Origin: Streptomyces sp. NBC_01465
GTDB taxonomy: Bacteria > Actinomycetota > Actinomycetes > Streptomycetales > Streptomycetaceae
Direction of reading: 5' to 3'
Length of the DNA: 64,000 bases
Assembly (NCBI RefSeq): GCF_036227325.1
Contig: NZ_CP109467.1
Location: forward strand, 1,860,001 to 1,924,000
Shown here: positions 10,471 through 12,671 of the stretch, piece by piece
Position numbering within the stretch: the first letter of the stretch is position 1
Layout of the letters: each line of letters begins with the position of its first letter
The notes under the pieces: generated by a model
Seen by the model: the letters and a program-made list of their open reading frames with translations, nothing else
Database searches by the model: none
What the model was told of the DNA's origin: nothing
Translations under genes and position numbers: made by a program

Positions 10471-10474
10471 TGGA

Positions 10475-10491
10475 ATACCCCCAGGGGGTAT
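10475..10491 (+). promoter_or_regulatory. CsoR-like GC-rich palindrome before the DUF4396 gene
   Basis: ATACCCCCAGGGGGTAT is a 17-base perfect dyad around a central A, starting five bases after the nfo stop and 50 bases before the next ATG. TACCC-GGGTA dyads of this form are the operators of copper-sensing CsoR repressors in actinomycetes. The neighbouring His-rich gene fits a metal-responsive target. CsoR binding is inferred from pattern only. Confidence 0.65.
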
Positions 10492-10541
10492 ACGGTTTTT
10501 GTCATCGACAGGAACCGCTATCCGGCGATGGGGGCCAAGCC

Positions 10542-11069
10542 ATGCAGCACGACACGCACGCCGAGCACGCGCACCACGACCACGAGGCGCACGACCACGC
10601 AGCCCACGAGCACCACGGCGCGAGCACCGGCAAGGTCACCTGGTCGACGGCCGCCCAGGCCACCCTCCACTGCCTCACGGGCTGCGCCATCGGCGAGATC
10701 CTCGGCATGGTCATCGGCACCGCGCTCGGCTGGGGCAACATGCCGACGATGATCACCGCGATCGTCCTGGCGTTCTTCTTCGGTTACGCCCTGACCCTGC
10801 GCTCGGTCACCAAGGCCGGCGTCGACTTCAGGACCGCCTTCCGGGTCGCCCTCGCCGCCGACACCCTCTCGATCGCTGTGATGGAGCTGATCGACAACGG
10901 AGTGATCGCGCTGTGGCCCGACGCCATGGACGCCACGCTCGCGGACGCCCTCTTCTGGGGCGCGCTCGCGGCGTCGCTGGTCCTCGCGTTCCTCGTCACC
11001 ACACCCGTCAACAAGTGGATGATCGGCCGCGGCAAGGGCCACGCGGTGGTCCACCAGTACCACCACTGA
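10542..11069 (+). CDS. DUF4396 membrane protein with His-rich N terminus
   Basis: This 175-residue protein probably handles a metal ion. The first 25 residues contain 11 histidines in repeated HxxH, HH and HxH patterns. A hydrophobic DUF4396 domain follows with about four membrane segments (roughly 42-60, 64-82, 96-115 and 137-157). The first begins with HCLTGC, putting Cys44 and Cys48 one helix turn apart at the membrane face. The C terminus is again His-rich (HAVVHQYHH). A GGGG-containing ribosome-binding site precedes the ATG at 10542. The CsoR-like palindrome upstream suggests copper induction. The domain has no assigned activity that I know of. Confidence 0.88.
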   Translation: MQHDTHAEHAHHDHEAHDHAAHEHHGASTGKVTWSTAAQATLHCLTGCAIGEILGMVIGTALGWGNMPTMITAIVLAFFFGYALTLRSVTKAGVDFRTAFRVALAADTLSIAVMELIDNGVIALWPDAMDATLADALFWGALAASLVLAFLVTTPVNKWMIGRGKGHAVVHQYHH

Positions 11070-11837: not shown

Positions 11838-12320
11838 ATGCAGGGCGACACCGAGGTCATCGAGTTCCTCAACGAGCAGCTGACCGCCGAACTCACCGCC
11901 ATCAACCAGTACTTCCTGCACGCGAAGATGCAGGAGAACTTCGGCTGGACGAAGCTCGCGGCGTACACCCGTTCCGAGTCGATCGACGAGATGAAGCACG
12001 CGGAGATCCTGACCGACCGGATCCTCTTCCTGGACGGTCTGCCGAACTACCAGCGGCTCTTCCACGTGCGCGTCGGCCAGACGGTCACCGAGATGTTCCA
12101 GGCGGACCGCCAGGTCGAGGTCGAGGCCATCGACCGCCTGAAGCGCGGCATCGAGGTCATGCGCGGCAAGGGTGACATCACGTCGGCCAACATCTTCGAG
12201 TCGATCCTCGCGGACGAGGAGCACCACATCGACTATCTCGACACCCAGCTGGAGCTGGTGGAGAAGCTCGGTGAGCCGCTCTACATCGCGCAGCTGATCG
12301 AGCAGCCGAGCGGGGCCTGA
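11838..12320 (+). CDS. bfr: Bacterioferritin
   Basis: Bfr forms a 24-subunit haem-containing shell that oxidises and stores iron. The 160-residue protein keeps all six ferroxidase ligands at E. coli numbering (Glu18, Glu51, His54, Glu94, Glu127, His130) and the haem ligand Met52 in the segment SIDEMKHAE. The ATG is preceded by GGAAGGAGC at 11822-11830. The gene faces bfd, whose product reduces and releases the stored iron, and the two are convergent with only seven bases between stops. I see no iron box before bfr itself. Confidence 0.97.
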   Translation: MQGDTEVIEFLNEQLTAELTAINQYFLHAKMQENFGWTKLAAYTRSESIDEMKHAEILTDRILFLDGLPNYQRLFHVRVGQTVTEMFQADRQVEVEAIDRLKRGIEVMRGKGDITSANIFESILADEEHHIDYLDTQLELVEKLGEPLYIAQLIEQPSGA

Positions 12321-12327
12321 GAAGAGG

Positions 12328-12588
12328 CTAGGCGGCTTCGGGAAGCGCGGAGAGCCCGACAGGGTCCTGTTCGGCAACCAGCGCCGGTACGCCCTGGTCG
12401 ATGAGCTCGCGCTGCGGACAGGCACCGCGGCCGAGCAGGGCCTGGATCCGTCGTACGCAGCCGCCGCAGTCGGTGCCGGCCTTGCAGGCGGAGGCTATCT
12501 GGCGCGGAGTGCAGGCACCGGCGTCCGCGTGGGCCTTGACCTGCTTCTCGGTGACGCCGAAGCACGAGCAGACGTACACGCGGTTCAC
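12328..12588 (-). CDS. bfd: Bacterioferritin-associated ferredoxin ([2Fe-2S])
   Basis: Bfd passes electrons to bacterioferritin so that stored ferric iron is released during iron starvation. The 86-residue protein has the BFD-type [2Fe-2S] ligands Cys7, Cys9 (VCSCFGVTE), Cys41 and Cys44 (TDCGGC) in about the first 50 residues. A longer C-terminal tail than E. coli Bfd (64 residues) follows, without motifs. An iron-box-like site lies 39 bases upstream of the ATG, so expression should rise when iron is scarce, opposite to storage by the convergent bfr. Confidence 0.93.
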   Translation of the reverse strand: MNRVYVCSCFGVTEKQVKAHADAGACTPRQIASACKAGTDCGGCVRRIQALLGRGACPQRELIDQGVPALVAEQDPVGLSALPEAA

Positions 12589-12626: not shown

Positions 12627-12645
12627 ATCGGTGAGGCTAACCTAA
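12627..12645 (-). promoter_or_regulatory. Iron box (DmdR/IdeR-type operator) of bfd
   Basis: Read on the minus strand, the 19-mer TTAGGTTAGCCTCACCGAT matches 16 of 19 positions of the actinobacterial DmdR/IdeR consensus TTAGGTTAGSCTAACCTAA. The first half is perfect and the second half degenerate. It sits 39-57 bases before the bfd ATG, where repressor binding could cover the promoter. Confidence 0.75.
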
Positions 12646-12671
12646 CCTTACCCGCCGCTCGAGGGTCGTAA

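Follow-up and report, generated by a model that had tools for sequence, protein, structure and literature searches.

The 64,000-nucleotide stretch analysed here, referred to as the window, is part of a single 9,138,776-base contig of Streptomyces sp. NBC_01465 (G000:C1:1860001-1924000). On its plus strand, positions 10542 to 11069 encode a DUF4396 membrane protein of 175 amino acids, as judged from the open reading frame, the Pfam match and the structure model, and the upstream neighbour is nfo, the gene for deoxyribonuclease IV (TIGR00587). In the gap between the two genes, a perfect dyad of 17 bases, ATACCCCCAGGGGGTAT, is found at 10475 to 10491, just as the sequence-only reading had described it, four bases after the nfo stop codon and 50 bases before the DUF4396 start (10542). 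Since it shows the TAC-N9-GTA arrangement flanking G tracts of a Type 2 operator and is conserved before orthologs, we regard it as a candidate CsoR-type operator. The dyad is the only match in the window at up to three mismatches, and at least one match of that quality arose in 8 of 100 shuffles; the pattern TACCCC-N3-GGGGTA occurs exactly once in the window and never exactly in 30 second-order Markov copies, which gave a mean of 0.03 matches at up to one mismatch. The claim that no csoR, copA or copZ is adjacent holds for the window as a whole, in which CopA, CopZ and CsoR queries found no match.

The predicted protein matches DUF4396 (PF14342) over the full length of the domain (residues 33-166; E 3e-44, 151 bits at a gathering score of 27). 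Pfam returned nothing else for the query, and the lack of an HMA or ATPase domain sets it apart from the P1B ATPase CopA and the chaperone CopZ, with whose genes it shares the operator in this genome and sometimes, elsewhere, the cluster; a search of NCBIfam gave no match. AlphaFold predicts four long helices with high confidence (residues 34-61, 66-91, 96-124 and 136-162; mean pLDDT 81.6) and low confidence at both ends of the protein. As had been read from the sequence, 11 His fall within residues 1-25, Cys occurs at positions 44 and 48 only, and the C-terminus ends in HQYHH. The His-rich N-terminal tail (residues 1-26; 10542 to 10619, plus strand) has a pLDDT of about 50, and the C-terminal tail, RGKGHAVVHQYHH (residues 163-175; 11028 to 11066, plus strand), has His counterparts in two bacterial groups and none in the haloarchaeal group. 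The Cys pair, however, had been placed at the start of the first membrane helix, whereas the model puts it 10-14 residues into helix 34-61.

A comparison of 93 bacterial and archaeal sequences shows where the family is constrained; they were selected manually from three search lists of 120 and comprise 17 close to the query, 48 of the Ensifer search and 28 haloarchaeal ones. H43, C44, C48, E52, S110, M114, E115, W139 and N157 are unchanged throughout. Four of these residues form the motif H43-C44-x3-C48-x3-E52 in helix 1 (10668 to 10697, plus strand), and three belong to D107-T-x-S110-x3-M114-E115 in helix 3 (10860 to 10886, plus strand), where position 107 is either D or E. The His tails are variable, and the haloarchaeal group mostly lacks them. 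As such, the earlier choice of His-rich tails and CxxxC as hallmarks stands insofar as both are present, but the conserved part consists of His, Cys, Glu and Met residues in the membrane and not of the tails. Loop charges place loop 2 and both ends in the cytoplasm in two bacterial groups, so that the N-terminal tail is probably cytoplasmic by its charge pattern; in the haloarchaeal group they give no clear topology. An internal C-terminus would also fit one actinobacterial protein in which DUF4396 is fused via an extra hydrophobic stretch to a secreted domain, because that stretch would carry the domain out; the fused domain resembles a secreted protein of the present genome whose gene carries a CsoR-type operator (43.8% identity over 256 residues, E 2e-56).

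Two divergent actinobacterial sequences (L055 and L070), one of which has extra N-terminal hydrophobic stretches, retain H43, C44, S110, W139 and N157. One of the two has E52 replaced by D, M114 by F and E115 by Q, the other C48 by D, E52 by I and E115 by V, and they may serve another function. Some of the haloarchaeal proteins, in which long N-termini are also found, are named 'copper oxidase' by their source. Other Pfam families scored only weakly among the 93 sequences (best E 0.001, CbtA, in 4 of 93). The family is large, with at least 8000 homologs scored; matches to the DUF4396 profile at about 22 bits in proteins of 410-426 residues from four actinobacteria were dropped, as three of them resembled MacB-type ABC permeases.

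The palindrome was sought before other DUF4396 genes, its absence there having been named beforehand as a reason to give up copper control, and the proposal stood up to this check. At least 11 of the 12 fixed bases were found within -300 to +60 in 78 of 80 named loci, and all 12 in 74, where the named loci are the best 80 of 562 (78 from Streptomyces, one from [Kitasatospora], one from Nonomuraea) and therefore lean towards close relatives; the same scoring of a control stretch found an operator in 1 of 80. When the 30 best-scoring of more than 150 Streptomyces matches, a choice with the same bias, were added and 7 duplicates removed, the operator was found at every one of the 88 distinct loci beside nfo (exact in 84) and in 13 of the 15 not scored as such, two of which (L089 and L119) have nfo in the stretch and failed the distance rule. 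Twenty loci had been hand-picked as second or chromosome-arm copies, and two of these turned out to lie beside nfo after all. In 854 kb of DNA flanking the named loci, the exact motif occurs twice. Across the 78 operator-bearing loci, the three free central columns of the dyad are conserved to 33%, 56% and 88% and the flank upstream of it mostly to 30-65%; since the loci were chosen by arm match, with the two operator-less ones left out, arm conservation is partly a criterion. Conservation of this kind is what one sees in a dyad bound by a protein.

DUF4396 reaches the Pfam cut-off in 27 of 296 actinobacterial genomes, Streptomyces partly included, and 18 actinobacterial loci outside Streptomyces were readable, apart from L062, which was too short for the operator count. 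An operator lies up to 450 bases upstream in nine of these, from six families, and the other nine have none within that distance. Six of the operator-less loci are near csoR, copA or DUF305; none of these genes accompanies a seventh, whose frame is split in two, and the last two are the divergent branch. The locus L177, too short for the count, adjoins csoR and copA. Within Streptomyces, 57 of 199 genomes gave no DUF4396 match, from which we conclude that the gene is dispensable in those genomes.

In the whole genome, exact TACCCC-N3-GGGGTA is found four times, namely before DUF4396, copZ-copA, a second copA and a gene for a secreted, His-rich protein of 295 residues with a sub-threshold YtkA-like match. 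Sites with one mismatch number six, of which one precedes csoR and another a DUF6153 gene. Because CsoR-type operators precede the DUF6153 gene (L158:4113-4532, one mismatch) and the secreted YtkA-like gene (L159:6420-7307, exact), both families are candidates for the copper regulon. The relaxed counts show no excess over a reversed control (10 sites versus 11 at up to one mismatch; 16 versus 16 for the 5+5 form at up to two), and it is consequently the exact form and its conservation that carry weight. Our guess is that start codons may inflate the control count, as the reversed pattern begins with ATG and ends with CAT. The parity at up to one mismatch is what could be said for a chance G/C-rich palindrome before a constitutive gene. 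Such an explanation would have to accommodate a free-centred dyad at all 88 loci beside nfo, 1 of 80 in the control and just two exact motifs in the 854 kb that flank the loci, and it was rejected on this conservation, in spite of the parity with the reversed control at either mismatch level; we give it next to no credence.

Which repressor would bind the site can be narrowed down further. The genome encodes two proteins of the CsoR family. The first matches the solved CsoR of S. lividans (4adz) over residues 4-109 of 109 (E 2e-56), and its Cys, His and Cys can be read as copper ligands; its own gene carries a site that is one mismatch off, and copA carries the site as well. The second, without the His, is encoded in a rhodanese operon. 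In the accessible text of PMC3902906, S. lividans CsoR binds sites with TACCCCCTAGGGGTA, and copper CsoR sites have TAC-N9-GTA spacing, equivalent to n7, whereas the sulfane-sulfur repressor of S. coelicolor is described in the available portion of PMC7533328 as binding ATACC-n6-GGTAT. The n7 form, ATACC-n7-GGTAT, was found in 76 of 80 DUF4396 loci and the n6 form, the spacing of the CstR type, in none of the 80. An n6 site, TACCCTGGGGGGTA (TACC-n6-GGTA, L212:5599), starts 55 bases before an oxidoreductase-like gene that is followed by rhodanese and then CstR-type genes, and a single base of spacing may thus separate the copper from the sulfur regulons. With n7 before DUF4396 and n6 at the sulfur operon, the copper CsoR is the best candidate for the repressor.

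One could also imagine that the CstR-type sulfane-sulfur paralogue uses the site and that the protein handles sulfur compounds, as the genome has such a paralogue in its rhodanese operon and two plasmids carry DUF4396 some kilobases from sulfur genes. The spacing counts 76 to 0 against this, and the other exact n7-type sites of the genome precede copper-type genes. CstR control was therefore rejected, and we consider it very improbable. The arrangement resembles the CsoR regulon of S. lividans in the TAC-N9-GTA operator with G tracts, in the close repressor ortholog and in a copZA with the same site. The regulons named there (csoR, copZA1 and copZA2) are three, and none includes DUF4396 as far as the accessible part of PMC3902906 extends.

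The dyad does not stand by itself, as it fills the 18-base spacer of GGAAT-N18-GTT, with a -35-like GGAAT at 10472 to 10476 and a -10-like GTT at 10495 to 10497 (plus strand; both exact matches). The sigma-R consensus, GGAAT-N18/19-GTT, is matched exactly in the window, and N18 is the spacing beside nfo; the accessible parts of PMC9205884 and PMC2375139, which describe the SigR regulon of S. coelicolor, agree with GGAAT-N18-GTT, the occupation of the spacer by a CsoR-type operator being the difference here. The promoter, which the sequence-only reading did not contain, hence looks to be of the sigma-R type. Of the 78 named loci with an operator, 67 have GGAAT-N18-GTT exactly, as do 81 of the 88 distinct loci next to nfo, and fewer of the remaining copies have it (5 of 15); genome-wide there are 80 sites versus 12 for the reversed pattern. 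At the copZA and secreted-protein sites of this genome, TATAGT, by our own reading a -10 element, overlaps the operator, and DUF4396 has the sigma-R-type promoter instead. As CsoR on the site would cover the promoter, output should need both CsoR release and active sigma-R, and the position of the operator within the spacer points to an AND gate with copper and thiol stress as its two inputs. Titles on CsoR, thiol stress and sigma factors in Streptomyces, PMC10318464 among them, include none on such a combined promoter as far as these sources are accessible.

An inverted repeat, GGTTTTTGTC-ATC-GACAGGAACC (10494 to 10516), overlaps the -10-like GTT and is typical of the locus beside nfo by its stem counts. 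A stem of at least eight is present in 39 of 78 named loci, compared with 4.9% of shuffles, and paired changes in the stem, such as CGTTC/GAACG, occur in two loci. Among 44 operator-bearing copies not scored as beside nfo, a comparison that leaves out L165 and L172 for want of a tblastn match, three have the stem.

A sigma-R-type promoter in 81 of 88 loci would also be explained if the protein acted in thiol redox chemistry, that is, if CxxxC were a membrane disulfide or cuproxidase site directed against copper-induced thiol damage, with the gene still a member of the CsoR regulon. The two Cys in one helix, invariant in 93 sequences, would suit such a role, but C-x3-C inside a helix differs from the thioredoxin-type CxxC, Met114 and the acidic residues look more like parts of a metal site, the query matched only DUF4396 in Pfam and nothing in NCBIfam, and sigma-R elements are missing in 10 of the 15 other copies. 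From our point of view, this makes a redox function improbable.

Other copies of the gene tie the family to copper through their neighbours. On pKRAD01 of Kineococcus radiotolerans, the annotated order is DUF305, a metal-sensitive regulator (csoR), an HMA protein (copZ), a P-type ATPase (copA) and DUF4396, the last of these preceded by a small hypothetical gene of opposite orientation; TACCCCCTGGGGGTA, the 15-mer of the window on the other strand, occurs twice before csoR, and no copy lies directly before DUF4396. Several Streptomyces plasmids carry DUF6153, DUF305 and partly an F510_1955 glycosylhydrolase ahead of DUF4396, with a four-helix copper-binding protein right after it in three and CopC with DUF1775 (YcnI) further off in two. 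In Ensifer, a megaplasmid has DUF4396 ahead of copA and of a gene for a MerR-type regulator that can be read as cueR. Among bacterial plasmid loci with a match, a copper-type gene lies within the stretch in 9 of 15, a count that, like that of the six operator-less actinobacterial loci above, is an upper bound because its 'CsoR' matches can include the sulfur-type paralogue (as on two plasmids), and 5 of 15 have none of the neighbours sought. Two haloarchaeal regions were read, one without a copper gene and the other with a plastocyanin-type gene 2 kb away. By tblastn, a four-helix copper-binding protein of the storage type is near DUF4396 in nine loci (L184, L186-L188, L190, L213, L214, L217 and L218).

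Beside nfo, copper-type neighbours, with DUF305, DUF6153 and F510 included, were found in 0 of 65 named loci, in contrast to 9 of 15 loci not beside nfo under the same definition, so that the copper link at the nfo locus rests on the operator. The description of a stand-alone gene is accordingly right for the present chromosomal locus, but many other copies sit within copper gene clusters. Taken together, the operators before orthologs, the copper neighbours of other copies and the operator common to copper genes in this genome support the proposed copper control by CsoR, and the present gene very probably belongs to the copper CsoR regulon.

The same neighbourhoods can be reconciled with a membrane-anchored buffer or chaperone of the CsoR regulon that would bind Cu(I) at the inner face for delivery to CopA. 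DUF4396 lies close to copA in several actinobacteria as well as in Kineococcus and Ensifer, copper-storage-type proteins adjoin it on plasmids, and its His-rich tails are long in the bacterial groups. A PacL-type ATPase partner has one helix, which differs from the four long helices modelled for the window protein. Still, a membrane partner of such a type is known for zinc: in the accessible text of PMC9374683, PacL1 is the membrane partner of a zinc P-type ATPase, and the type consists of a transmembrane domain and a cytoplasmic region that ends in a metal-binding motif. What speaks against the buffer is the location of the invariant residues within helices 1 and 3, together with the variability of the tails, which the haloarchaeal group mostly lacks; a path through the membrane fits this better than buffering by the tails. 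We hence hold this explanation to be rather unlikely, though it is the strongest of the competitors.

Most likely, the protein helps cells to cope with excess copper. Under CsoR control it would be produced when copper is in excess, and this speaks for a role in export, relay or buffering and not in uptake. Because the invariant set lies inside the membrane, we favour a carrier or relay that would detoxify Cu(I) over a static buffer and consider it slightly more probable than not. In the mechanism that we propose, apo-CsoR on the operator would block the sigma-R-type promoter. Excess Cu(I) would remove CsoR, and sigma-R, active in thiol-oxidative stress, would then start transcription. Excess copper can also cause thiol-oxidative stress. 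The variable His-rich tails would take Cu(I) from the cytosol and pass it to an intramembrane site formed by His43, Cys44, Cys48 and Glu52 of helix 1 together with Asp107, Met114 and Glu115 of helix 3, from where it would be exported or handed over outwards. The model as a whole, combining the CsoR regulon, the sigma-R-type promoter and a four-helix Cu(I) carrier or relay, appears to us reasonably probable. More tentatively, DUF4396 might be an unrecognised four-helix Cu(I) exporter family of bacteria and archaea, built around the His/Cys/Cys/Glu plus Asp/Met/Glu site, that in Streptomyces, with CsoR between the sigma-R -35 and -10 elements, is made only if copper overload and thiol stress coincide; this goes further, and we see it as possible but doubtful.

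No functional paper on DUF4396 was found in the open-access literature. One paper names the domain, which there flanks a metal-resistance cluster (PMC7760498), and the accessible portions of the Kineococcus copper proteomics (PMC2928746) and of the gut CsoR meta-regulon (PMC4938975) make no mention of it; the predicted CsoR targets in the available part of PMC6414726 carry names that could not be matched to the present gene. The analysis thereby ties a widespread domain of unknown function to copper control without relying on its His-rich appearance and names conserved residues as candidates. It also suggests an AND-gate promoter that would join copper and thiol-stress sensing in antibiotic producers; according to the accessible text of PMC6414726, copper affects both differentiation and antibiotic production in these bacteria.

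Some further observations concern related sequences and the surroundings of the locus. A phage record that carries no annotation and stems from human faecal samples encodes, near its end, a DUF4396 relative with 53.6% identity (MT835530.1:37356-37769), and this may be host DNA. In an actinobacterium of another family, two exact operators (L163:3253 and L163:3310) lie between two genes, one rhodanese-like by our own reading and the other Cys-rich and presumably DUF1326-like. In the window itself, a ferritin-like gene (11838 to 12320) adjoins a BFD-like ferredoxin gene (12328 to 12588, minus strand), and before the latter stands GGTGAGGCTAACCTAACCTTACC (12630 to 12652), which resembles an iron-regulator (IdeR/DmdR) box.
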